Source of the DNA: a virus
Virus record (IMG/VR): IMGVR_UViG_3300027844_001828
Span: 124,001-188,000 of that record
Length of the DNA stretch: 64,000 nt
Strand: one strand, 5' to 3'
The position numbers and the translations under genes were made by a program. Positions 2,270 to 58,294 of the stretch are shown here, piece by piece. The stretch's first letter is position 1. Every line of letters begins with the position of its first letter. The notes beneath the pieces were generated by a model. It made no database searches. It was not told the origin of the DNA and saw only the letters and a program-made list of their open reading frames with translations.

Positions 2270-2712
2270 GAAAAATAAAGAAAGTAACGTGGGCAGAGTG
2301 TGAGCAGTGGATAAATACGGCTACTGATTACTGGAATGACGAAATCATAGTCAATGAATTGGTAATAAATAATATCTATGGGATACCAAGAGGGGGGATA
2401 ATTTTTGCCACAATGCTTTCACACCAACTTGATATACCTCTTATTGCAAACAAAGAAGACATTGGAGAGTCCACTTTGATTGTAGATGACATTGCGGACT
2501 CCGGTAGCACATTTCATGATTTCATTATACCATTGAATAGAATTCAAGGCAGACACTTCCGTTTAACATCGGCAATAGTTGTAAATCAATCATCCACTTT
2601 TTTACCTCAACAATTTTCCTTTATGAATCATTGGAATGACTGGATTGAGTTCCCTTATGAAACATCGGCGTATGATCACGTTAGCAAGGTAACGGCGACA
2701 GCCCAGGCTTAA
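2266..2712 (+). CDS. type I phosphoribosyltransferase
   Basis: A 148-residue protein with the PRPP-binding signature LIVDDIADSGSTF near residues 66-78, preceded by YGIPRGG, which is typical of the purine/pyrimidine phosphoribosyltransferase fold. It probably makes a nucleoside monophosphate from a free base and PRPP; the base cannot be told from sequence. Its ATG overlaps the stop of the IMPDH/GMPR gene (ATGA), so the two are translationally coupled and likely act in purine salvage. Confidence 0.8.
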   Translation: MRKIKKVTWAECEQWINTATDYWNDEIIVNELVINNIYGIPRGGIIFATMLSHQLDIPLIANKEDIGESTLIVDDIADSGSTFHDFIIPLNRIQGRHFRLTSAIVVNQSSTFLPQQFSFMNHWNDWIEFPYETSAYDHVSKVTATAQA

Positions 2713-2760
2713 TTTATACGACAATTGAATCAAACTGTCAGATAAACAACGAGAAAGAAC

Positions 2761-3369
2761 ATGGCCGATCTTAATAAAGTAAAACAACTCCGTCAAGAAA
2801 CTGGAGTTGGGATTGTTGCCTGCAAAGAGGCATTAGAAAAAGCTCACGACGATCTTAATGAAGCGAAGATTGTTCTTCGTAAGGGTAGTGGTGAGGTCGC
2901 TGAAAACTTATCTAACAGGAATGCAACTGAGGGTATTATTGTCACATACACTCACCACAACTCAAAGGTGGGATCAATTGTTGAAATTCACTGTGAAACG
3001 GATTTTGGCGCGGCTACGCTCAAAGACTTTGGTCATGAGGTCGCCATGCAAGTCGCCGCCTCAAACCCTGAGTTTATAAGTTTCGAAGATGTTTCAGAGG
3101 AAAGGATTGCTCAAGAAAGAGCGTATTTCATTTCTCAGTCCATAAATAGCATTTGTCCGCCAGAGCTTGAGTACGATGGTGAAAGTGACGAGATTGTTAA
3201 TAAAATGGTTGTCGGTAAGTTTAAAAAGTTCAGATTAGAACACTGTCTTCTTAATCAAAGAACAATCAAGGACTCCGGTGTTTCCGTAAGAGATCTTCTC
3301 AATGACCAAGTGCAACGGCTTGGGGAAAAGATCGAAATCGCTAAGTTTGCGAGGTTTCAGATCTCATAA
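2761..3369 (+). CDS. tsf: elongation factor Ts
   Basis: A 202-residue EF-Ts. The N-terminal UBA-like domain starts with LNKVKQLRQETGVGIVACKEAL, close to the bacterial [20 protein letters not shown] pattern, and the conserved ETDF (as CETDFGAATL) follows near residue 80. The C-terminal KIEIAKFARFQ also fits the family. At 202 residues it is shorter than E. coli EF-Ts (about 283) and resembles compact forms. EF-Ts recycles EF-Tu; in RNA phage Qbeta the host EF-Ts is recruited by the replicase, and huge dsDNA phages have been reported to carry their own copies. A role in redirecting host translation is inferred. Confidence 0.92.
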   Translation: MADLNKVKQLRQETGVGIVACKEALEKAHDDLNEAKIVLRKGSGEVAENLSNRNATEGIIVTYTHHNSKVGSIVEIHCETDFGAATLKDFGHEVAMQVAASNPEFISFEDVSEERIAQERAYFISQSINSICPPELEYDGESDEIVNKMVVGKFKKFRLEHCLLNQRTIKDSGVSVRDLLNDQVQRLGEKIEIAKFARFQIS

Positions 3370-17384: not shown

Positions 17385-17890
17385 CTTGCAATGATTGTAG
17401 GAATGAAATAAACGAACACCCCTTCCATATATTGAAATGTATAGTTGGGAATCTATTGGGGGATTTATTCTTGTGTCCCGGATGTTTTTTCATAAGAACC
17501 GCCGGTGAGGCAGAAATCATTGGATCTATGGGCGATGACATCATTGTATACAATGAGGGTATGAGCGCTATCGCGAAAGAGTTTTACGAGGTGCCATGCC
17601 CGAATTGTAGCACCAGCCTTAATGATATTAACACTAACGGTCTCTTCGGGTGTGAAGAATGTTATGTTAATTTTTGTGAAATGATAAACATTGCAGAAGC
17701 GAAGGGCTGTCAAAAGATTAAAAAAGACAAGCCCAAGAACATTGATAACAATTTTGAGGGCAACAAGGATGAGGCCCGCAAAAGGGTCTTGAAACAACAG
17801 CTTAAGCAGGCTGAAGAAAAAGAAAATTATGAGAAGTGCGCCGAGATAAGAGACGAATTAGCAAAAATTGATCAAGAGGGAAAACAATGA
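17381..17890 (+). CDS. mcsA: McsA-like protein arginine kinase activator
   Basis: A 169-residue McsA homologue. It has four CxxC pairs (residues 3/6, 32/35, 73/76 and 91/94); the second set reads VPCPNCS...GLFGCEECYVNF, matching the McsA pattern CPKCxxxxxxFxxxGRFGCxxCYxxF. The C-terminus (about 130-165) is a UVR motif helix hairpin. In Firmicutes McsA binds zinc and activates the arginine kinase McsB. Here the gene overlaps the McsB-like gene by 4 bases, the same order as in bacterial ctsR-mcsA-mcsB-clpC operons. Confidence 0.85.
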   Translation: MTCNDCRNEINEHPFHILKCIVGNLLGDLFLCPGCFFIRTAGEAEIIGSMGDDIIVYNEGMSAIAKEFYEVPCPNCSTSLNDINTNGLFGCEECYVNFCEMINIAEAKGCQKIKKDKPKNIDNNFEGNKDEARKRVLKQQLKQAEEKENYEKCAEIRDELAKIDQEGKQ

Positions 17891-18945
17891 TTAAGGGAAT
17901 AAATGTTGATAAGCTTTTGAAGGGCGTCCCTATATGGTTGAGAAACGACTCAACTGTCAAGGAAAAATCCATAGTTCTACATAGAAATATTAAGGGGATA
18001 AAGTTCCCTCACATGGCTAGCGAGAAAGAACTCCAATCAGTTTGCGCCATGGTCGCAAAAAGAATGATGGGATTGGAAGAGTTCAATGCTTGGGAATTTG
18101 ATTTGGTTTCGTCAATAAAGAAATTAAATCGGTATATTTTGTATGAGAACAAAGTCGCAGATGAGGCTATCATACCAGTTGGAACTGATATGAATGAGCT
18201 TCCAATGGCGCTCTTTGTTAACGAAGACGGATCTCAGTCGGTATTCGTCAACTCACAAGACCATATTGAGGTGCGAGTCAAAAGCGACAAGTTGGGACTT
18301 CAAGAGTTGTTGGCGAGAGGTCACTCAATTCTTGAGAGCTTGGGATTCGATTATGCAAAGGTCGATCCATTTGGTTATGTAACAGCAAGCCCGGCTTTGA
18401 TGACCCTTGGCATGGAAGCGCAGATATTCACGCACATTCCTGGGATAATTATATCAGAAAGGAACGAAGACTTGGAAAATTTGTTGGAAAACAATAAATT
18501 AGTCGCTTCAGGTTTTTTCGGGCACAATACTCATTTCACTTGCAACTTCTATACTTTTGCAAACCAGCATATAGCAATGAGATCAGAAGAAGAGATTGCC
18601 AATACCTTAGTAGGCGTTTCGAAAAGAATTGAGGCTCTTGAAGAAGAGTGCAGGGAGGAATATGACATCGAAGATCTTAAGGACATAGTCGCTCGATCAT
18701 GGGGAACATTGAATTATGCCAATAAGGTAGACTTAATGGAATCGATAGTCGGGCTCAGTCATTTACTTATGGGCACGGAGTTAGGTCTTTTGAAAAACGT
18801 TTCAAAAGAAAAAACAAAACAAGCCTTGTCAGATGTCTTTCATTATAAAATATTAAAGCGGCATAAATGTCCACCAGACAATGTTGATTTTATTCGAGCG
18901 AAGGGGATCAAGAAAACCTTAAATGGAAAGAGGGAAGCGAATTGA
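17887..18945 (+). CDS. mcsB: McsB-like protein arginine kinase, probably catalytically dead
   Basis: A 352-residue McsB relative of the phosphagen kinase superfamily. Segments that line up with B. subtilis McsB are IVLHRNIKGIKFP (28-41), VFVNSQDHIEVR (119-130), GYVTASP (163-169), and NFYTFANQHIAMRSEEEIAN (220-239). Key residues differ: the NEEDH catalytic pair is NSQDH, the SCPTN cysteine is ASPAL, the ATP-binding SSRIRLAR is reduced to SIVLHRN, and the glutamate-bearing loop is FFGHNTHFT. I infer a pseudokinase that keeps the fold and perhaps phosphoarginine or McsA binding. It overlaps both neighbours (ATGA, TTGA). Confidence 0.8.
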   Translation: MIKGINVDKLLKGVPIWLRNDSTVKEKSIVLHRNIKGIKFPHMASEKELQSVCAMVAKRMMGLEEFNAWEFDLVSSIKKLNRYILYENKVADEAIIPVGTDMNELPMALFVNEDGSQSVFVNSQDHIEVRVKSDKLGLQELLARGHSILESLGFDYAKVDPFGYVTASPALMTLGMEAQIFTHIPGIIISERNEDLENLLENNKLVASGFFGHNTHFTCNFYTFANQHIAMRSEEEIANTLVGVSKRIEALEEECREEYDIEDLKDIVARSWGTLNYANKVDLMESIVGLSHLLMGTELGLLKNVSKEKTKQALSDVFHYKILKRHKCPPDNVDFIRAKGIKKTLNGKREAN

Positions 18946-30079: not shown

Positions 30080-30093
30080 GGATGGAAATTGAC

Positions 30094-31251
30094 ATGATAA
30101 AATCAATGTTAGATTCAGATTTATACAAGTTTTCAATGCAAGCAGCAGTTCTTCACAATTTCCCCGGAGTAATTGTTGAATACCGTTTCAAATGCAGAAG
30201 TGTATGGGCGGATCTCGCCCAGCATAGGGATGAAATCGAGAGACAAATAGGTTTCCTTGGCAACCTTTACCTCACTCCCGACGAAGAGAAACAGGTTCGC
30301 GAGAAAATACCTTTCCTCAAGCCAGACTATGTTGATTTCCTTTCTGAATTCAGATTCAACCCTGATTTCGTGAAAGTTGAAACGATTTCTGATACTGAGA
30401 TTGATATTATTGTTCGCGGCCCATGGCTCCAAACAATTCCTTTCGAGGTCCCAATCCTTTCTATTGTTGAAGCAGTAGCATGCAAAGACTTAATGACTGA
30501 TGAAGCCTTGAGCATTGGCAGAAGAAACTTGGCTGACAAGATTGAAATCATCAAGGCCGTTGGTCCAGAATTCAAATTAGCAGATTTCGGGACTCGTCGC
30601 AGAGCGAGTTTCGAGCAGCAACGTTATGTTGTAGAGACACTTACGAATGAAGTTCCAAACAACTTTGTTGGGACAAGCAATGTCTCCCTCGCTTTAGATA
30701 ACAATATTAAACCAATCGGAACGATGGCGCATGAGTGGATTCAAGCAATGCAAGGTCTCACTTGGTTGCTCAATAGCCAGAAAATGGCTTTAGATATATG
30801 GATGAAAGAATATCGTGGTCAGCTTGGTATTGCTTTGTCCGACTGTCTTGGATACGCCGCTTTCCTTAGAGACTTCGATTTCCTCTTTTCGAAGAGCTAT
30901 GACGGCTGTCGCCATGACTCTGGCGATCCGTTTGAATGGGGTGAGAAGTTGATTAGACACTATGAATCAATGAGCATCGATCCGAAAACAAAGACAGCAG
31001 TATTCAGCGATGGTCTCGACATGATATTGGCCGTGAGGTTGTTTGAAAGGTTCCATGGGAGAATCAAAGTCTCTTTCGGCATTGGCACCCACTTGACCAA
31101 CGACCTTGGATTTGATCCTGTTCAGATCGTTTTGAAGATGGTCGAGTGTAATGGTCAACCGGTAGCAAAGATAAGCGACTCGTCTGGCAAGGGTATGTGT
31201 AATAACGCCGTATATCTTACCCATCTTAAAAACATGTTTGAGGTGGATTGA
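30094..31251 (+). CDS. pncB: nicotinate phosphoribosyltransferase
   Basis: A protein of about 385 residues (starting MIKSMLDSDLYKFSMQ at 30094; an earlier ATG at 30082 is also possible). It matches PncB: DSDLYKFSMQAAVL, VEYRFKCRS, ADFGTRRRASFEQQ, the phospho-histidine region MAHEWIQAMQG, and HDSGDPFEWGEKLI. It converts nicotinate and PRPP to nicotinate mononucleotide, the first step of the Preiss-Handler route. NadD (51632) and NadE (35292) for the next two steps are in this window, so the phage may resupply NAD+. Confidence 0.9.
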   Translation: MIKSMLDSDLYKFSMQAAVLHNFPGVIVEYRFKCRSVWADLAQHRDEIERQIGFLGNLYLTPDEEKQVREKIPFLKPDYVDFLSEFRFNPDFVKVETISDTEIDIIVRGPWLQTIPFEVPILSIVEAVACKDLMTDEALSIGRRNLADKIEIIKAVGPEFKLADFGTRRRASFEQQRYVVETLTNEVPNNFVGTSNVSLALDNNIKPIGTMAHEWIQAMQGLTWLLNSQKMALDIWMKEYRGQLGIALSDCLGYAAFLRDFDFLFSKSYDGCRHDSGDPFEWGEKLIRHYESMSIDPKTKTAVFSDGLDMILAVRLFERFHGRIKVSFGIGTHLTNDLGFDPVQIVLKMVECNGQPVAKISDSSGKGMCNNAVYLTHLKNMFEVD

Positions 31252-32560: not shown

Positions 32561-33577
32561 TTATGATTCGGCTTTGACCTTTGCCGCATTATACAATCCT
32601 CTGGAAACAGAATATAATGGGTCTCTCGCTAATTCAATAGAGGCAACTGGAATCGGGAATTCTTCTTCGATCTTTACCTTCATCACATCGATGAAACCAC
32701 CAACCATTGAAGTCCCACCGGCCACAACAATCTTAATAGGATCTGATATATTGGGGAGGCTTTTTGGATCGGTTGAAGAATACAACTCATTGAATTTGTC
32801 AACAATGTATTCAATCAATGATTCATAATAGATGGCAATAGCGTTCTCGACATTGTCCTTTCTATTCATAAGATCCATCCCAGCTTCTTTTCGATGCTGA
32901 ATGACGTTCATTGTTTCATTACATGCTATAGCCGCATTCTTATCAATGTAATCACCAGAACGGGCGATTGAGAAACTGAATATAGGCATGCCTAAGAAGG
33001 CGTAGCAGACATTTACCATTCCGGCACCGCATGATATTCCAATACCTGAAAAGCCTTCATCTTCCAATTCTGAATAAACAATAGCGAGGCCCTCATTCAT
33101 TTTGTAAGTATTCTTGTATCCAACGTTACTTAAGACGTTCTTTACAGTGCTTGCATGATATGTGACATCAAAATCAGCGTCGATTGGATCGGCTGGGATT
33201 GAATAGTAAACGATATCGTCTTCATTCTCAGGTTCTCCAAGGACACCCTTAATCAATTGAGAAACCATGACAGTGCTTTCGGGCTCAGCGGGATTGAGGA
33301 CACCATTTGACATCGGTCGCAAACATTCTTTATGGAATAGGTTCGCAAATTTGAAAGCGTCATCGCCAAGGATGTAAATGGTTTCGCCAATCTTGACGAA
33401 ATTAGCGCCAGATTTAATAAGCATGGATTCACCGAAATTCATTGCTGAACCGGCCATGAAGTTGCCTGGATCGATCTTGAAGAATACGTCTTTTACTTTA
33501 TGGTATTCAAACTGATCATCTTTCTTTTCTGAAGCAACAATATTACCTGTTCCAACATCTAAACCTACAAATCTCAT
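32561..33577 (-). CDS. actin-like ATPase (ParM/MreB superfamily)
   Basis: A 338-residue protein with the actin/Hsp70 ATPase signatures: phosphate-1 loop VGLDVGTGNIV near residues 4-14, phosphate-2 ISCGAGMVNVCY near 175, and adenosine motif VVAGGTSMVGGF near 290. The closest resemblance is to plasmid-type ParM/StbA proteins. It probably forms filaments that position DNA or a replication structure. It overlaps nothing but is followed in the same direction by the HldE-like gene and preceded by a membrane protein gene, 1 base apart. Confidence 0.8.
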   Translation of the reverse strand: MRFVGLDVGTGNIVASEKKDDQFEYHKVKDVFFKIDPGNFMAGSAMNFGESMLIKSGANFVKIGETIYILGDDAFKFANLFHKECLRPMSNGVLNPAEPESTVMVSQLIKGVLGEPENEDDIVYYSIPADPIDADFDVTYHASTVKNVLSNVGYKNTYKMNEGLAIVYSELEDEGFSGIGISCGAGMVNVCYAFLGMPIFSFSIARSGDYIDKNAAIACNETMNVIQHRKEAGMDLMNRKDNVENAIAIYYESLIEYIVDKFNELYSSTDPKSLPNISDPIKIVVAGGTSMVGGFIDVMKVKIEEEFPIPVASIELARDPLYSVSRGLYNAAKVKAES

Positions 33578-35291: not shown

Positions 35292-37226
35292 ATGACAATA
35301 CGTGGATACCACAAGATCGCTATTGCTGTACCCAAGCTCACCCTTGCAGATCCAGCCGCAAACGCTGAAGAAATTTGTAAGCAGATATCCTCTGTGCAAA
35401 ACACAGGTGTTTCAGTGATGCTTTTCCCGGAACTCTGTGTGACTGGATACTCATGTGGAGACCTCTTCCAGAGTAGAGCCTTGATAGAGGCCGGGTATGC
35501 TGCTTTAGGTAAAATCGCTGAAATGACAAAATGGGTTGACGGTTTACAAAGCGTCCCCACGGTGATTGTCGGCGCTCCCATTATAGCGTATGGAAAGTTG
35601 TATAACTGTGCTATAGTAATCTCTGATGGCAAAGTTTCTGGAATAGTACCAAAGAGTTACCTCCCCAACTACAAAGAGTTTTATGAGAAGAGATGGTTTG
35701 CTTCTGGAAAGGGGGTCAAAAACGACTCTTTGTCAGGGATTAATGATAGTCAAATAAGTTTCGGCACCGATTTGATTTTTAATTGCCGCAATGACGATCC
35801 ATTCCCCTTTGCTGTTGAAGTGTGCGAAGACTTGTGGGCTGTAAACCCTCCCAGCAATGATTACGCACTTGCCGGTGCCGAAGCTATTTTTAACTTGTCA
35901 GCGAGTAATGAACTTGTTGGTAAAGCATCTTTTAGAAAAGATCTTGTGGTTGCACATAGCGCCAAATTAATGTCTGCATATTTTTATGCCTCATCTGGAA
36001 TTTACGAGTCTGTTTCAGACGTGGTATTCGGTGGACATATGATGGCCGCAGTAAACGGGCACTTGATTAAAGAGAACGATAGGTTCAATCGTGAATCAGA
36101 AGTGATGACTGTTGCCGTTGATTTTGAAGCTATAGAACAACAACGTCGTTCCGAATCAATCTTTAGAGATTATGACACCATTGAAATGAGAGGTCAGGAT
36201 GTCAATCTTTACCGAACTGCCAATGCTGACTATTCAGATCTTGTCATTGATCCACATCCATTTGTCCCGTCTAATGAAAGTGTCATGAATGAGCGGTGTC
36301 AAGAGATTTTCACGATTCAATCAACAGCACTCGCCAATCGACTTCAACATGTCGGTGAAAATACGAAAGCGGTTATTGGCGTATCGGGAGGACTTGATTC
36401 AACACTTGCACTTCTTGTTGTTGAAAAAGCATTCAAACTCTTGGATAAAGATCTTGAAGATATCATTGCAGTAACAATGCCTGGACCCGGAACGTCAGAT
36501 AGAACCTTTAAAAATGCAAACGAGTTGTGTTTTGAAATGGGCATGGGATTAAAGGAAATAAGAATTAAAGAGGCTTGTGAACAACACTTAAAAGACATTG
36601 GACATGAATCGACAAGTGATGTGACATACGAAAACGTTCAAGCCCGTGAGCGCACACAAGTATTAATGGACCTTGCCAACAAACATGACGGTATCGTCAT
36701 TGGAACAGGTGATCTTTCAGAGATCGCACTTGGCTGGTGTACATATAATGGGGATCACATATCAATGTATGCTGTTAATTGCAGTGTTCCTAAGACCTTG
36801 GTGAAGCACTTGGTTTCATGGGTGGCTGATAGTGGTAATGTTACCACCAGAACAGGGGAAATTTTGCATGATATTGTTGATACGCCAATCTCTCCAGAAT
36901 TACTTGCGCCAAAAGATGGTGAGATCTCTCAAAAGACAGAAGATATCATCGGACCATATGAGCTTCATGATTTTTTCCTTTACTATACAATAAAGTTTGG
37001 GTTTACACCTGATAAGATTATCACTCTTGCCAAACTCGCATTCACAGAATATGAAGAGGCGGAGATTAAAACTTGTATGGAGACTTTTATCAAGAGATTT
37101 TTTGGGAATCAATTCAAACGCAATTGCATACCTGACGGGCCAAAGGTCGGTAGTATCTCATTGTCGCCTCGTGGAGACTGGAGAATGCCAGTTGAGGCCA
37201 GTTCAGCGGCCTGGATGAAAAGTTGA
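35292..37226 (+). CDS. nadE: glutamine-dependent NAD+ synthetase
   Basis: A 644-residue two-domain enzyme. The N-terminal nitrilase-like glutaminase has the Glu/Lys/Cys triad: FPELCVTGYSCGD (Glu), PKSYLPNYKEFYE (Lys) and VEVCEDLWAV (Cys). The C-terminal synthetase has the PP-loop motif GVSGGLDSTLALLV (around residue 360) and IGTGDLSEIALGWCTYNGDH. It amidates nicotinate adenine dinucleotide to NAD+ with ATP, the last step of the Preiss-Handler route. Length fits the bacterial long form. It has its own promoter. Confidence 0.92.
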   Translation: MTIRGYHKIAIAVPKLTLADPAANAEEICKQISSVQNTGVSVMLFPELCVTGYSCGDLFQSRALIEAGYAALGKIAEMTKWVDGLQSVPTVIVGAPIIAYGKLYNCAIVISDGKVSGIVPKSYLPNYKEFYEKRWFASGKGVKNDSLSGINDSQISFGTDLIFNCRNDDPFPFAVEVCEDLWAVNPPSNDYALAGAEAIFNLSASNELVGKASFRKDLVVAHSAKLMSAYFYASSGIYESVSDVVFGGHMMAAVNGHLIKENDRFNRESEVMTVAVDFEAIEQQRRSESIFRDYDTIEMRGQDVNLYRTANADYSDLVIDPHPFVPSNESVMNERCQEIFTIQSTALANRLQHVGENTKAVIGVSGGLDSTLALLVVEKAFKLLDKDLEDIIAVTMPGPGTSDRTFKNANELCFEMGMGLKEIRIKEACEQHLKDIGHESTSDVTYENVQARERTQVLMDLANKHDGIVIGTGDLSEIALGWCTYNGDHISMYAVNCSVPKTLVKHLVSWVADSGNVTTRTGEILHDIVDTPISPELLAPKDGEISQKTEDIIGPYELHDFFLYYTIKFGFTPDKIITLAKLAFTEYEEAEIKTCMETFIKRFFGNQFKRNCIPDGPKVGSISLSPRGDWRMPVEASSAAWMKS

Positions 37227-39575: not shown

Positions 39576-40613
39576 GTGAAAAGAATGATAAAATTCACAG
39601 GCATTGGCGCGTTTAGAAACGTCATTAAAGCTGTTTGCCATCGTTCCGCCTATATTGGTATGGACGATCAAGGCGAGCCTATTTATGACGGGACCAGACC
39701 AAAGCCAACGATCACATTCAATGGTGCTGTTAAGCTTCATGGAACTAACGCTGGTGTTTCTTATGAGCATGCGACCGGAGAATTTTGGGCGCAATCAAGG
39801 AAAAATACCATCACTCCAGAGAAAGACAATGCGGGCTTTTCCTTCTTTGTCGAATCTCACAAGGATGTCTTTCTTGAAATGTTCAAGAGCCTCCCATGTG
39901 ACGGAATAACAACCATTTATGGAGAGTGGTGCGGCAAGGGTGTTCAAAGCACGGTTGCCATTACTGAACTTGATAAATTCTTCGTGATCATTGGTGTTAA
40001 AGAGAGTCCTCTTGAGCCAAGCGAAGATGAAGTTGCGATCTGGCTCCCTGATGATAAAACACAGCCGTTGTCTTCAAATGATGATAGGGTCTTCAACATT
40101 CTTGACTTTCCTACGTTCTCAATTGATATAGATTTCAAGAACCCTGAACTCTCAACGAACAGGATGGTTGAAATCACAGCAGCTGTCGAGGCAGAGTGTC
40201 CAGTTGCTAAGCAGCTTGGTGTTTCTGGAATTGGAGAAGGTGTTGTTTGGAAGTCTGACGTTAATGGAGAGAGATATATCTTCAAGGTTAAAGGCGACGA
40301 ACACGCTGGCAAGTCCAAGGTCAAGACGCTTAAGCCTGTTGACAATGAAAGGCTTCAAAGGATTAACGACATTGCTGAGCAAGTAACTCCAGTGTGGAGA
40401 CTCGAACAGGCTATTCAAGAGACCTTTGACACCAATAATGGTGGCGATATCGACAGAAAAGGTCTTGGAGATTTCCTCAGATGGGTTGTCAAAGACGTGC
40501 TCAAAGAAGAGATCGATGTTATTAGCGATGCTGGTTTCGAACCAAAAGACGTTAATAAGAAGATTTCTGAAGTTTGTAGAACTTGGTTCTTCGAAAGGGA
40601 AAGCCAGGTTTAA
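39576..40613 (+). CDS. RNA ligase (Rnl2-like)
   Basis: A 345-residue ATP-dependent RNA ligase of the T4 Rnl2 type. The nucleotidyl-transfer motifs are present: motif I KLHGTNAG (Lys53 is the adenylated residue), motif III region TIYGEWCGKG, motif IV GVVWKS and motif V FKVKGDEHAGK. GTG 39576 is chosen as start because AAGGAAAT lies at a proper distance; an ATG at 39585 is also in frame. It seals nicked or broken RNA. Together with the Thg1-like protein it suggests RNA repair during infection. Confidence 0.85.
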   Translation: MKRMIKFTGIGAFRNVIKAVCHRSAYIGMDDQGEPIYDGTRPKPTITFNGAVKLHGTNAGVSYEHATGEFWAQSRKNTITPEKDNAGFSFFVESHKDVFLEMFKSLPCDGITTIYGEWCGKGVQSTVAITELDKFFVIIGVKESPLEPSEDEVAIWLPDDKTQPLSSNDDRVFNILDFPTFSIDIDFKNPELSTNRMVEITAAVEAECPVAKQLGVSGIGEGVVWKSDVNGERYIFKVKGDEHAGKSKVKTLKPVDNERLQRINDIAEQVTPVWRLEQAIQETFDTNNGGDIDRKGLGDFLRWVVKDVLKEEIDVISDAGFEPKDVNKKISEVCRTWFFERESQV

Positions 40614-41538: not shown

Positions 41539-41808
41539 TTGAGCCTGTTCAACAGGTGTGGGATATACTTACAGAGTCTGAGAAGTGATGGTTATGAGTG
41601 TGACATTATGGTTGTCAACTCATACTCTCCTAAACATTTGGTGATTGACAATTACAGAGTCCTTCATACTGTTGTACGAGTAGTAGTTGATGGTCAATAC
41701 CGTTACATTGACCCCGCAAATTTCAAGTGGTCGGAAAACTTAAATGAATCCGCCGCATTTGTCAGAGTCGTTTCCGAAGAAGACCTATTAAGAAAAAATT
41801 TTCAATAA
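41539..41808 (+). CDS. small hypothetical protein
   Basis: An 89-residue ORF starting at TTG 41539 (AAGAG just upstream); an ATG near 41608 would give a shorter form. It includes HTVVRVVVDGQYRYIDPANFKWS. It lies immediately upstream of the 23S-rRNA-like RNA element. Function unknown. Confidence 0.5.
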   Translation: MSLFNRCGIYLQSLRSDGYECDIMVVNSYSPKHLVIDNYRVLHTVVRVVVDGQYRYIDPANFKWSENLNESAAFVRVVSEEDLLRKNFQ

Positions 41809-42003
41809 TTTTAAACAAGGCCGGTTGGCTTAGAAGCAGCCATCCCTTAATGAGTGACAAGTGAGATGTTAAGGCTGACTAAGACGTATTCGTGAAAGGC
41901 CGATGCTCACGTTGGAGAAAGTTGATTGCGCAGTCAACCAGTATCTTGAAGTCTTTGGCGTAACAGCACACCTTGTTCCTTTTAATCTTAACAGAGAAGA
42001 GCG
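41809..42003 (+). promoter_or_regulatory. intergenic leader containing RNA structure
   Basis: After the L11-like element come GTTGATTGCGCAGTCAAC (hairpin GTTGA...TCAAC, about 41921-41938) and AAGAG before the ATG at 42004. No clear -35/-10 pair is visible, so this stretch may be the leader of a transcript that starts upstream, with the RNA element acting in cis. Confidence 0.35.
41819..41901 (+). ncRNA. RNA element mimicking the 23S rRNA L11-binding domain (GTPase-associated centre)
   Basis: Positions 41824-41844 (21 nt, core GGCTTAGAAGCAGCC) are identical to helix 43 of the bacterial 23S rRNA L11-binding domain (E. coli about 1056-1078), including the thiostrepton-site A1067 loop. The element folds as a three-way junction: closing GGCC (41819-41822) with GGCC (41898-41901), the helix-43-like hairpin, a hairpin CCTTAA (41845-41850)/TTAAGG (41869-41874), and ACG-TATT-CGT (41884-41893). 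In 23S rRNA the same place holds H42/H43/H44, so helix 44 has been replaced. It is intergenic and cannot be coding in either flank. It may bind L11 or translation GTPases, or be a regulator of the gene at 42004. Confidence 0.65.
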
Positions 42004-42306
42004 ATGAATAACGAATATAAGAAAAAAGATTTTGAACACATGGCCAACAAACGGCGCAATGCCTTGAGTGTTATTGCAGACAAACTCGGCAAAGAACATA
42101 CCATTACCAAAATGATGGGTGGTATGGCTTGGGGGCGAAATAATCCAGAGCCACATCCTGGATATGGGGCAAAGGACGCCATAAGAGGAATGGGGTATCT
42201 TGATGGTTCATTTCATATCTTGAATATTTGGGCGCGTGACAATGATCGCACGGCACAAAAAATCATGCTCGCTATTTACCCTATGAAATGGGAGTCTGCG
42301 AAATGA
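42004..42306 (+). CDS. small basic hypothetical protein
   Basis: A 100-residue basic protein (EYKKKDFEHMANKRRNALSV..., MMGGMAWGRNNPEPHPGY). It follows GAGAAGAGCG. Its stop overlaps the next ATG (ATGA). No family recognised. Confidence 0.6.
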   Translation: MNNEYKKKDFEHMANKRRNALSVIADKLGKEHTITKMMGGMAWGRNNPEPHPGYGAKDAIRGMGYLDGSFHILNIWARDNDRTAQKIMLAIYPMKWESAK

Positions 42307-44509: not shown

Positions 44510-44579
44510 TTATCTGTAGCTCAATAGCAGAGCTATTCCCTCATACGGAATCGGTTTTGGTGCAACTCCAAACGGATAT
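44510..44579 (+). tRNA. tRNA-Met(CAT)-like element inside the large ncRNA
   Basis: The cloverleaf can be drawn: acceptor TATCTG with CGGATA (6 bp; the first position is T-T mismatched), D stem GCTC/GAGC with a 7-nt loop lacking the usual GG, anticodon stem ATTCC/GGAAT with loop CTCATAC (anticodon CAT, T33 kept), a short variable region, and T stem TTTGG/CCAAA with loop TGCAACT. No CCA is encoded. The acceptor mismatch and unusual D and T loops suggest it may be a degenerate or structural tRNA-like domain; with CAT it could also be an isoleucine-type tRNA. Confidence 0.55.
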
Positions 44580-44936
44580 TTTTTAACGAAAATAAAAAAA
44601 CGCAAAGACGCTCTCGGTAGTAGGTGAAAATGGCCTAATTCCAAATCCTTCGGGTAATTTGGAGACGTGAAGCTCGCAAGGCAGATCGTTTTAGGACAAG
44701 TTAAAATTTAGTGGATTAGCGTTCACGAACTGTTCATAAGGCAGGAATGGAAACGAGTTCTGATTAGCTTACTATGACGGCGCAGTCGCAGGCGCTTAAT
44801 AAAATTGCGGTCATGATCGATGTCTGGTGTCCAGCTTGCTGGCCCAGAAGGAAATTAGGGCAAGGCACGTCGCAAGCGTACTGTAATCCTGAAGAGTCGA
44901 TTATTGAAGGTGTATTTCTCAACCTTTTAATTTTTT

Positions 44937-51475: not shown

Positions 51476-51635
51476 AGAACTCCAAGAATTAGTCAATGGT
51501 AGATTCATTGACGCCTTTGGCAGAACACCACTTCGGCAGCGACAGGAAGATATTTTGGGCGAGGCGATTGAACTCAAAAACGCAACAGATATTACGAATC
51601 TCAGAGAAGAGACGGGGGATTTGCTTCAACAATGA
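51465..51635 (+). CDS. N-terminal half of a split MazG-like domain
   Basis: A 56-residue ORF. RQEDILGEAIELKNA has the ExxE and NLREETGDLLQ the ExxD parts of the MazG-type pyrophosphohydrolase metal site. The stop (TGA) overlaps the ATG of the next gene (CAATGATG), whose first 36 residues (VEELVQSTLNKTERRKEQY...) look like the missing last helix of the same domain. Translational coupling or a -1 shift would join them. Confidence 0.5.
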   Translation: MKIKELQELVNGRFIDAFGRTPLRQRQEDILGEAIELKNATDITNLREETGDLLQQ

Positions 51636-52342
51636 TGTTGTGTAGTGAGTCTGGCTGGTCAGTAGAAGAGCTTGTGCAGTCAACTCTTAATAAGACAGAG
51701 AGAAGAAAGGAGCAATACCACACGTTGGGGAGAAAGACAAAGGTCGCTCTTCTTGGTGGGGCTTTTAATCCGCCTACGATTGGCCACTTAAGGCTTGCAC
51801 AGTTCATTCTCGATACAAGTAAGAACTTCGATGAGGTTTGGTTTGTACCGTGTTATCAGCACATGTATAACAAAGAACTCGTTACACCAGAGCATAGATT
51901 GGCTATGTGTAACTTGTTATGCGCTAACGATTGCAGAATAAAGACATTTGATTATGAGATCAAAAATCAATTACGTGGTGAGACTTACCATTTTGTAAAG
52001 AGATTGCTTGATGAAGACTTTGCAAAAGACCAATATGATTTTAGTATGATAATTGGGTTGGACAATGCTAACACATTTGATAAGTGGGTGAACTACGAAG
52101 ATCTTGAGAAGATGATGCGCTTTGTCGTGGTGTCTCGACAAGGGACCGAAAGAGATGAGTCTGTAGACTGGTACTTAAAGCCACCACACATTTATCTTTA
52201 CAGTGGTGGTGATGTCCCAGAGATATCTTCAACGGAAATCAGAAGGTGTATCGTCGAAGACGACACATCACAAGCCGCTTACGTTAAAGAGTTCATGGAT
52301 GATGGGGTATGGAAATACCTTTGTGATAACGAACTTTATTGA
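51632..52342 (+). CDS. nadD: nicotinate-nucleotide adenylyltransferase with MazG-like N-terminal tail
   Basis: A 236-residue protein. From residue about 37 it is NadD: VALLGGAFNPPTIGHLRLAQ with the GxFxPxHxGH-like motif (as FNPPTIGHL), WFVPCYQHMY, the SMIIGLDNANTF strand and the C-terminal ISSTEIRRCI. It adenylates nicotinate mononucleotide. With PncB and NadE it completes the Preiss-Handler path. Residues 1-36 resemble the C-terminal helix of a MazG domain. The start overlaps the preceding stop. Confidence 0.85.
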   Translation: MMLCSESGWSVEELVQSTLNKTERRKEQYHTLGRKTKVALLGGAFNPPTIGHLRLAQFILDTSKNFDEVWFVPCYQHMYNKELVTPEHRLAMCNLLCANDCRIKTFDYEIKNQLRGETYHFVKRLLDEDFAKDQYDFSMIIGLDNANTFDKWVNYEDLEKMMRFVVVSRQGTERDESVDWYLKPPHIYLYSGGDVPEISSTEIRRCIVEDDTSQAAYVKEFMDDGVWKYLCDNELY

Positions 52343-55641: not shown

Positions 55642-56202
55642 ATGAAAATAAGAAAAGCCGTATATGCTGGCAGCTTCGATCCTGTGACCAATGGGTATCT
55701 TGATATCATCAAGAGAGCGTCCAAAATTTTTGATGAGGTTATCGTTGCAATTGGTATGAATCCTGGTAAAACACCAATGTTTTCTGCTGATGAAAGATAT
55801 AAATTTGTACATGAAGCCACGTCAGCGAAGAAATTTGGATCGTTGTTGAGCGTGACATATTCGAGGAAGGATTCTAAAAAGATAGAAAAATTTATTCTTT
55901 CGACTGAGGCCGGGGTAGATTACAGTTGCTTGACAGAAAGACGCCTTCATGGTCTTGACTATTCAATAATTGCAGCCCCAAGGAATATTTACGAGAAGTA
56001 CGCCAAGGCAATCGCCAGTGAATACATTGTTCATGGTGGTTGCACAATAAATGAATACGTGAATGGTAGACATAAGTTTTTGAAGAGCACAATAGAGTCG
56101 GATGTTTTCTTGACTGACGAATTTGCACCATCAGAAGCAATGGCTCAGGAAAACATGGAATGGGAAATTGAAAATCTTTATAAAATAGCGGGGTCAGAAT
56201 AA
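55642..56202 (+). CDS. CoaD-like nucleotidyltransferase with altered active site
   Basis: A 186-residue protein whose first 60 residues match phosphopantetheine adenylyltransferase: [21 protein letters not shown] and [20 protein letters not shown]. The catalytic (T/H)xGH motif is TNGY here, so the key His is Tyr. The C-terminal 80 residues diverge. It may be inactive or have a different substrate. It is followed closely by two small ORFs. Confidence 0.75.
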
Positions 56203-56851: not shown

Positions 56852-58294
56852 ATGGGCCTCAAAGCACACAAGTTTGGCACACATCCGTTTGACACAACCT
56901 ACGATGTGATTGATTCCGCCACACTCCAATGCACTGACCTCAAGAAAGGGTCTAACAAGTTCTATCAGATGGAGTTACACAAAAACGCCTCTGGTTATTG
57001 GAGGATCTTCACAGCTAACGGGCGCACAGGCTCATACTCTACCCAATTGGAGCGTATGCCTGAAGACGAGACGGCAGGACGCGCAGAGTACGCAAAGATT
57101 TTCCGCACCAAGACCACCCGCAAGAGTCAGCCTTATACTAAGGTTGATGTTGTGAATTCCAACCTTGGAACAGATGCTGGGAACCAAGTTGTTCAATCAG
57201 ACGACTTCGATCAGAAGAACATCACCGTTGCCGACACAGGCAAAAAGAATAAATCAAAGAAGGTTATTCCAATCAAGATTTCTCAGTTGGTTTCCAGGCT
57301 CTACAGTGAAGCCGGTAACGCTTGTAAAAGCCAGCTTCATGGAAGTGTTCAAGCGAGTGAAGAGAACCCTCTTGGGACTCTTACAAAAACTCAGATTGAA
57401 GATGGTAGAGCCATTCTTCAAGAGGCGAATGCCATCTTGGTCGCTGACGCCACTCGTATTGACTCAATTGAATCTGAGGTTATCGCTATAACTGACAAGT
57501 TCTACAGCACTATTCCACAGGAAATTGCTCTTCGCCCGAAAACTAAAGCCGGAGAAGATGCCCGTGATGATTGGATGCGTGGAATTGCCCTCAACAATGC
57601 TACAATCCTTGATGATAAGTTTGATCTTCTCGACCTTCTTGGTGATGTGAAGGGAATGATGGGCGGTTTCGCCACGACAGATGAAGAAAAACGTTTGAAA
57701 GAGGCGAACTGTGAGTTTTCTGAAGTGGACAGTGCCACTTTCAAACAGGTCTGCGATCTTATTGTCAATACTCAGTCGAAGCACCACAATTGGAAGTTGA
57801 ATCCAAGGCGAATTTTTTCAATGAAAAGCAAATCTCAATCAAGTCATAAAAAAACAATGGGGGAAACCGGGAATTGTCAAGAACTTTTCCATGGATCTGG
57901 ATCTCAAAATATTTTGGGAATATGTAAACGAGGAATTTTAATACGTCCTCCTGGGGTCTATATTACTGGCGCGTTATTGGGAAACGGGGCTTATTTCGCT
58001 AATAATAGTACAAAATCAAGTCAATATTCTACTGGCAGATTTGGTGGATCTGGATCTTCCAATGGAAATACTTCATTTATGTTTGTTGCCAACGTGGCTC
58101 TTGGGAAAGTGAAAAAATTAAGCAAGGGTAGCAGTTCTATTGTCAAAGCACCGAATGGTTTTGATTCTGTTATGGGGGCTGCTAATTATACAGATTGTGG
58201 ATGGAGTAAACTCCTTCATGATGAATTTGTAGTTTATGATGTTAAACAGCATACTCTTGACTACTTGATTGAATTTGAACAATCTTATAGATAG
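56852..58294 (+). CDS. PARP1-like ADP-ribosyltransferase (WGR - helical - catalytic)
   Basis: A 480-residue protein with the three-part plan of PARP1's C-terminus. Residues about 25-100 form a WGR-like domain (NKFYQMELHKNASGYWRIF). Residues about 130-290 are helical, like the regulatory domain. The catalytic part has His347 (ELFHGSGSQNILGI), Tyr381 (GNGAYFANNSTKSSQY) and Glu458 (LHDEFVVYD), the H-Y-E triad of poly-ADP-ribose polymerases; PARP1 has LWHGS, GIYFAD and NEYIVYD at these sites. It probably transfers ADP-ribose from NAD+ to protein or nucleic acid, perhaps sensing DNA ends. The macro protein at 25222 is a plausible partner. Confidence 0.88.
   Translation: MGLKAHKFGTHPFDTTYDVIDSATLQCTDLKKGSNKFYQMELHKNASGYWRIFTANGRTGSYSTQLERMPEDETAGRAEYAKIFRTKTTRKSQPYTKVDVVNSNLGTDAGNQVVQSDDFDQKNITVADTGKKNKSKKVIPIKISQLVSRLYSEAGNACKSQLHGSVQASEENPLGTLTKTQIEDGRAILQEANAILVADATRIDSIESEVIAITDKFYSTIPQEIALRPKTKAGEDARDDWMRGIALNNATILDDKFDLLDLLGDVKGMMGGFATTDEEKRLKEANCEFSEVDSATFKQVCDLIVNTQSKHHNWKLNPRRIFSMKSKSQSSHKKTMGETGNCQELFHGSGSQNILGICKRGILIRPPGVYITGALLGNGAYFANNSTKSSQYSTGRFGGSGSSNGNTSFMFVANVALGKVKKLSKGSSSIVKAPNGFDSVMGAANYTDCGWSKLLHDEFVVYDVKQHTLDYLIEFEQSYR

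Follow-up and report, generated by a model that had tools for sequence, protein, structure and literature searches.

The window, by which we mean the whole 64,000-nucleotide stretch analysed here, is part of a 235,624-base IMG/VR virus record. An intergenic gap (41809-42003) separates an upstream ORF (41539-41808) from the next ORF, which starts at 42004 on the same strand, and most of this gap is occupied by an RNA element whose structure is, with near certainty, that of a ribosomal GTPase centre. Its parts are listed below in window coordinates; rRNA position numbers here and throughout are those of E. coli 23S, and the counts refer to the relatives of the element.

41814-41977, + strand: complete GTPase-centre mimic RNA, 164 nt, recognised by the H43 and H44 motifs, the closing helix, covariation across 122 relatives and the MFE fold
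41814-41820, + strand: 5' strand of the closing helix, AACAAGG, corresponding to 23S H42 (1049-1055); pairs with 41971-41977
41823-41845, + strand: helix 43 with the A1067 thiostrepton loop (1058-1080), an exact 23-nt match to the RF02541 consensus
41847-41855, + strand: junction and 5' strand of helix 44 (1082-1090, UUAAUGAGU), with 1060-1088 and 1082-1086 in relatives
41856-41953, + strand: 98-nt insertion within helix 44, between 1090 and 1091, with closing pairs conserved in relatives
41856-41858 with 41951-41953, + strand: insertion-closing stem GAC/GUC, its three pairs present in 98/98, 96/98 and 88/98 relatives
41954-41957, + strand: UUUG linker from the insertion to the helix-44 hairpin, missing from rRNA; U, U, U and G conserved
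41958-41969, + strand: 3' hairpin of helix 44 with the A1095/A1098 loop (1091-1102), pairs 1091-1100 and 1092-1099
41971-41977, + strand: 3' strand of the closing helix, CCTTGTT, corresponding to 1104-1110; pairs with 41814-41820

The original prediction rested on 21 nt identical to helix 43, and these are found exactly at 41824-41844 (GTTGGCTTAGAAGCAGCCATC); with one flanking base on each side the identity reaches 23 nt. Its argument against coincidence holds, as by our arithmetic the chance that both strands of 64 kb would share any exact 21-mer with a 23S of 2.9 kb is ~8e-5. The 23-nt stretch aligns to positions 1099-1121 of the Rfam LSU_rRNA_bacteria model with zero mismatches, and its 13.6 bits lie under the 50-bit cut-off because a single hairpin aligns. 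The remainder of the domain lies 110 nt downstream of this match. Because the H44 loop and then a helix matching H42 were found there, the element was taken to span 41814-41977 and to contain the whole L11-binding domain, while the earlier boundary at 41901 truncates it. The three-way junction proposed for the shorter segment (GGCC/GGCC and CCTTAA/TTAAGG) has to be given up, since that 83-nt segment folds no better than its shuffles (z -0.73) and these pairings are not the ones conserved in relatives. Nor has helix 44 been replaced, as had been thought: its 5' strand (GAGU) and its 3' loop (GCGUAACAGCAC) are both kept, with the insertion between them. What survives of the earlier reading is thus the structural mimicry of the L11-binding domain of 23S rRNA, which is real, but not the fold or extent that it proposed. 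The unconstrained MFE fold of a 180-nt segment gives H42 (the outer helix), H43 and the insertion helix. A1088 lies at window position 41853 and its tertiary partner, U1060, at 41825. The window element is a somewhat divergent member of its family, with C at 1056, C-C at 1057-1081 and U-U at 1082-1086.

When IMG/VR was scanned for exact copies of the 21-mer, 78 contigs were returned, of which L067 alone continues as plain 23S. The other 77 have in common GGnn-GTTGGCTTAGAAGCAGCCATC-nnTTAARGAGT and are divergent beyond it. Further downstream they carry a second common motif, TTTGGCGTARYAGCACACC, which is the 3' half of helix 44, and after it comes the complement of the sequence lying 5' of the first motif (GAATGTCCTG/CAGGACATTC in L003, GAGCATCGTGCTG/CAGCACGATGCTC in L117). 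An independent scan with the second motif alone gave at least 119 stretches, mostly with the first motif upstream, and both scans converge on one family of 122 non-redundant elements from IMG/VR and cultured phages. The 122 were selected on the loop motifs only, ignoring pairing (H43 with at most four mismatches, H44 loop with at most two, spacing of 40-450 nt, near-duplicates removed), and 98 of them make up the standard (main) class.

Cultured phages with the element include pf16, 4_4572, XacN1, GAP32, CBB, Milchi, UNO-G1W1 and others, infecting Pseudomonas, Aeromonas, Xanthomonas, Cronobacter, Pectobacterium, Serratia and Erwinia. BLAST with either motif matched largely the same cultured phages; the neighbourhood of the window element gave no BLAST match to cultured phages. 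In the eight records examined there was no RNA annotation over the element, and a small hypothetical ORF overlaps it in some; one of the eight, Pd_22F, proved to be a genuine 23S stretch. Among the 39 element-bearing records in which the motif matches exactly, 38 have a single copy of the element. When 84,980 bacterial and archaeal genomes were scanned with a strict H44 motif, 16 matches were obtained, of which 12 are real elements, including several from Clostridia contigs. The elements found in contigs of Clostridia genomes (L202 from Flintibacter muris, L193 and L204) presumably lie in prophage or phage contigs.

Pairing was then evaluated across the family. For the outer helix of the 122 elements, 85% of cells are paired in the true register, compared with 36-46% at eight other registers and with a mean of 45.6% (maximum 49.8%) when partners are shuffled among elements. 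Within the standard class, 1054-1105 is paired in 98/98 (GC 59, AU 35, UA 3, CG 1), as is 1055-1104, and 1057-1081 in 96/98 (AU 88, CG 8). Position pair 1058-1080 covaries while remaining paired in 98/98 (GC 36, UA 33, AU 23, CG 3, the rest wobble), and 1082-1086 is paired in 94/98 (UA 58, CG 25, AU 11). In the helix-44 hairpin, G1091-C1100 and C1092-G1099 are present in all 98, A1095 in 97 and A1098 in all 98. The pairs that close the insertion are formed in 98, 96 and 88 of the 98, with all four Watson-Crick types at each, and the linker that follows reads U, U and U in 97/98 each and G in 94/98. For the tertiary contacts the evidence is nucleotide identity: U1060 and A1088 are invariant (98/98), 1082-1086 is as given above, and 1056-1103 is G-A or A-A in 93/98. 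A separate alignment of 19 sequences with the insertion removed had 93.4% of cells paired, compared with 72.9% when shuffled and 34-52% when slid, and contained 84 two-sided changes, compared with 28.9 in shuffles. Taken together, the pairings of H42, H43 and H44 are those of the L11-binding domain, and shuffles and slides score far lower. The conserved fold with covarying closing helices in related phages, which the original prediction had named as support for a mimic, is therefore seen across the 122 elements.

These data bear on the explanation that the H43 stretch is near-identical to 23S because it comes from rRNA contamination, a chimeric assembly or a decaying rDNA fragment. We give this explanation a negligible chance: contamination and chimerism are refuted by the covariation, the recurrent insertion at a single site, the phage-specific UUUG and A1101, and the presence of the element in finished cultured-phage genomes. 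The same element occurs in two other IMG/VR contigs (L036 and L059) and in more than 120 diverged relatives, in line with the earlier view that it is a mimic and not an rDNA contaminant, and the objection that it might be an assembly join with rRNA reads fails with plain 23S around the 21-mer in only one of 78 contigs. The window contains no flanking 23S sequence and no other rRNA match, so that a functional 23S or an rDNA fragment is not at hand.

Homology with 23S rRNA could be followed in both directions. A covariance model trained on 19 phage sequences only detects genuine 23S over 62/62 positions (L189, 76.6 bits; L067, 72.8 bits), and in a Citrobacter genome its sole match scores 72.8 bits (E = 1.1e-16). 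Of 61 Bacillota genomes, 19 gave a 23S match with the same model under strict first-look filters, as did 25 of 60 from Pseudomonadota; the rest gave none. Conversely, the Rfam LSU model recognises phage elements at E < 1e-5 (L017, 31.4 bits; L111, 29.8 bits and spanning the insertion; cut-off 50). Since each is matched by a model in either direction, the homology holds both ways. At 1090-1101 the phage RNAs have U-A in 97/98, where rRNA has A-U or U-U; the pair is created by a U1101A change relative to rRNA. The phage RNA apparently descended once from rRNA, to judge from these sequences, and a single origin is preferred to repeated capture because the insertion site, UUUG and A1101 are invariant. 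An uninterrupted H44 is absent, the insertion being found in 122/122 elements, a count to be read with the gap of at least 40 nt that had been a selection criterion.

The insertion itself ranges from about 40 to 365 nt in relatives. Compared with dinucleotide shuffles the inserts are modestly more structured (mean z -0.79, n = 98, p about 1e-7), and that of the window is unremarkable (z -0.65). No single conserved domain was found among the 122 inserts, only partial motifs (GGTAAGG in 36, CACCCCGTAA in 16). The sequence GGCACCCCGTAAATGGTAAGG, a GNRA-like hairpin followed by UAAGG, recurs immediately 5' of UUUG, for example in L013, L062 and L186. By eye, about eleven elements (L138, L158, L160, L143, L124, L144, L125, L085, L101, L106 and L156) have a second hairpin inserted near 1077-1079 in helix 43, with the core otherwise kept.

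We next considered the genomic setting. A tRNA lies no more than 200 nt from the element in 61 loci; the nearest one is on the strand of the element in every case, and in 52 it lies within 30 nt. The arrays are uniformly oriented, which accounts for part of this agreement, because no opposite-strand tRNA was recorded within 1 kb of elements or of random positions. Several loci read by eye have the element between tRNA calls, among them L001, pf16 (between tRNA-Asn and tRNA-Pro) and UNO-G1W1 (between tRNA-Trp and tRNA-Arg), while 35 of the 122 have no tRNA in the flanking DNA examined. In the window, the sole tRNA/tmRNA call by ARAGORN and Rfam is a tRNA at 44510-44580, with none over the element. 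CTA-anticodon tRNAs, called tRNA-Pyl by ARAGORN and possible UAG suppressors, were seen in the element phages L005, L018, L024, L043 and L074.

The tight, same-strand packing with tRNA genes would suit an RNA that touches tRNA elbows in the manner of the GTPase centre in the A/T state and helps phage tRNAs to be matured, stored or delivered. We think this quite unlikely, as the position may reflect shared transcription or processing only and the loci without a neighbouring tRNA are left out. Lying between two same-strand ORFs, the window element could also be a cis-acting leader or regulator of the next gene, as had been suggested for the ORF at 42004. This is very improbable: what lies downstream varies among phages and is often a tRNA, the nearest tRNA within 200 nt is consistently co-oriented, and any one neighbouring protein family is seen at 6 of the 122 loci at most. 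Nor was there a ribosomal-protein gene downstream of the kind expected for an autoregulatory leader, with no such recurrent neighbour at the 122 loci and an L11 gene absent from all 47 records.

When defence nucleases cleave tRNAs, phage tRNAs take their place, and a location among such counter-defence agents, as they are generally known, would fit a sacrificial copy that draws off a host nuclease, modifying enzyme or toxin aimed at the GTPase centre. An RNA ligase (PF09414, phrog_548) is encoded at window 39576-40613, about 1.2 kb upstream of the element, and in XacN1 a 2'-5' RNA ligase gene directly adjoins it; both would be in keeping with such a decoy. We consider it unlikely nonetheless, as the elaborate H42 and the insertion would be superfluous in a cleavage decoy, and we know of no anti-phage system acting on H43/H44.

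Elsewhere in the window, 56852-58294 encodes a poly(ADP-ribose) polymerase-like protein with a WGR domain and the regulatory and catalytic domains of PARP. Genes at 30082-31251, 35292-37226, 51632-52342 and 55642-56202 encode nicotinate phosphoribosyltransferase, NAD synthase and two cytidylyltransferase-like proteins, which suggests an NAD synthesis or salvage pathway beside the PARP. The same phage encodes a Volactin (actin-like) at 32561-33577 (- strand) and an ATP:guanido phosphotransferase at 17887-18945.

The pattern of conservation distinguishes two groups of nucleotides. Invariant in 98/98 are G1059, U1060, G1063, C1072, A1077, C1079, A1085, G1087, A1088, G1091-G1093 and A1098-C1100. 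Relaxed in the phage RNAs are A1067 (G, C or U in 11), G1068 (A in 17), A1070 (G in 14) and A1096 (G in 30), positions that on the ribosome face the solvent, the factors and thiostrepton; all four are invariant in 22 distinct 23S sequences, a small set drawn with the phage-trained model. This pattern was weighed against the idea that the RNA offers a GTPase-centre face to EF-G, EF-Tu-tRNA, IF2, RF3 or RelA, with or without uL11, and sequesters or stimulates them. Both factor-touching loops are kept (A1095 in 97/98, A1067 in 87/98), and some of these phages carry translation genes: L7/L12-like matches occur in 5 of 47 records, and the window does encode EF-Ts, as first reported (about 2704-3363). 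Even so, we judge a platform or decoy for factors rather improbable, because those four positions vary in phages and not in the sampled 23S, and because the isolated domain is, as generally known, a weak factor ligand.

Invariant fold nucleotides together with relaxed factor-facing positions fit uL11 binding better than factor mimicry; the C-terminal domain of uL11 binds the folded H43/H44 core. The putative partner would be the uL11 of the host, as these phages encode none. The L11 gene is rplK/relC, and thiostrepton, bound between L11 and H43/H44, blocks RelA activation (PMC9998046). On the strength of the conservation pattern and this role of L11 and thiostrepton in activation, we propose uL11 capture with a blunted stringent response as the leading model. 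The phage RNA would be co-transcribed with tRNAs, fold as a GTPase centre and bind host uL11. Capture of free or newly made uL11 would then lead to L11-poor ribosomes or to an L11-RNA complex, and the most likely benefit would be blunted RelA/(p)ppGpp activation and altered use of factors during infection. The variable insertion may serve each phage as its own effector or stabilising domain.

We slightly favour the broader form of this proposal, that the elements are an undescribed, widespread class of phage RNA, evolved from a whole GTPase centre and fitted with an interchangeable insert, whose target in trans is host uL11 and, via it, RelA or translation GTPases. For the narrower form, a stand-alone, trans-acting non-coding RNA with the GTPase-centre fold that captures host uL11 and blunts the stringent response, we see the case as evenly balanced. 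L11 titration and stringent-response control by the phage RNA are plausible. The main difficulty with uL11 capture is abundance: cellular uL11 is about as abundant as ribosomes, and titration would therefore call for an extremely abundant RNA, or for a particular time or location. In addition, uL11 capture leaves the large, diverse insertion unexplained, and phages need efficient translation, which L11-poor ribosomes would compromise.

No Rfam 15 family scores above its gathering cut-off over the element, so that a known Rfam family was rejected as its identity; only tRNA and tmRNA were called in the window and 12 loci. Searches of open-access papers turned up no prior description of a phage GTPase-centre RNA. 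The closest relative is the 23S GTPase-associated centre (H42-H43-H44, E. coli 1051-1108, part of RF02541), with which the phage RNA has in common the secondary structure, the loop sequences, most invariant residues and the nucleotides at U1060-A1088, 1082-1086 and 1056-1103. It differs in being a separate gene with a free-standing closing helix, in the 1090/1091 insertion, UUUG and A1101, and in the relaxation of A1067, G1068, A1070 and A1096. The leaders of the L1 and L10 operons imitate rRNA binding sites and are thus also non-rRNA RNAs that copy a protein-binding site; to our knowledge there is no L11 autoregulatory leader of that kind. In contrast to those leaders, the phage RNA is viral, has no recurrent ribosomal-protein gene downstream and reproduces an entire rRNA domain, including the factor loops. 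With phage tRNA arrays and translation parts (tRNAs, tmRNA, EF-Ts, L7/L12) it shares a neighbourhood and the theme of altering host translation, but it is an rRNA-derived RNA. GOLLD, ROOL and HEARO are large phage or metagenomic non-coding RNAs, at times close to tRNAs, and like the element they are structured orphans; the element has no above-threshold Rfam match to any of them, only sub-threshold matches to LSU rRNA. The copied domain itself is well known.

Many large bacteriophages carry a gene for this mimic RNA, usually among tRNA genes. Viral imitation of tRNAs and proteins is known, while a phage RNA family that rebuilds a functional centre of rRNA is absent from Rfam 15 and from the open-access papers searched. 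As the GTPase centre is the site of action of uL11, RelA, EF-G, EF-Tu and thiopeptides, such an RNA offers a route to phage control of translation and the stringent response, and its occurrence in genome-sequenced cultured phages makes it testable now. The phage RNAs also show which nucleotides the L11-binding domain needs once outside the ribosome. Our results suggest viral manipulation of the host ribosome by means of an imitation of one of its parts.
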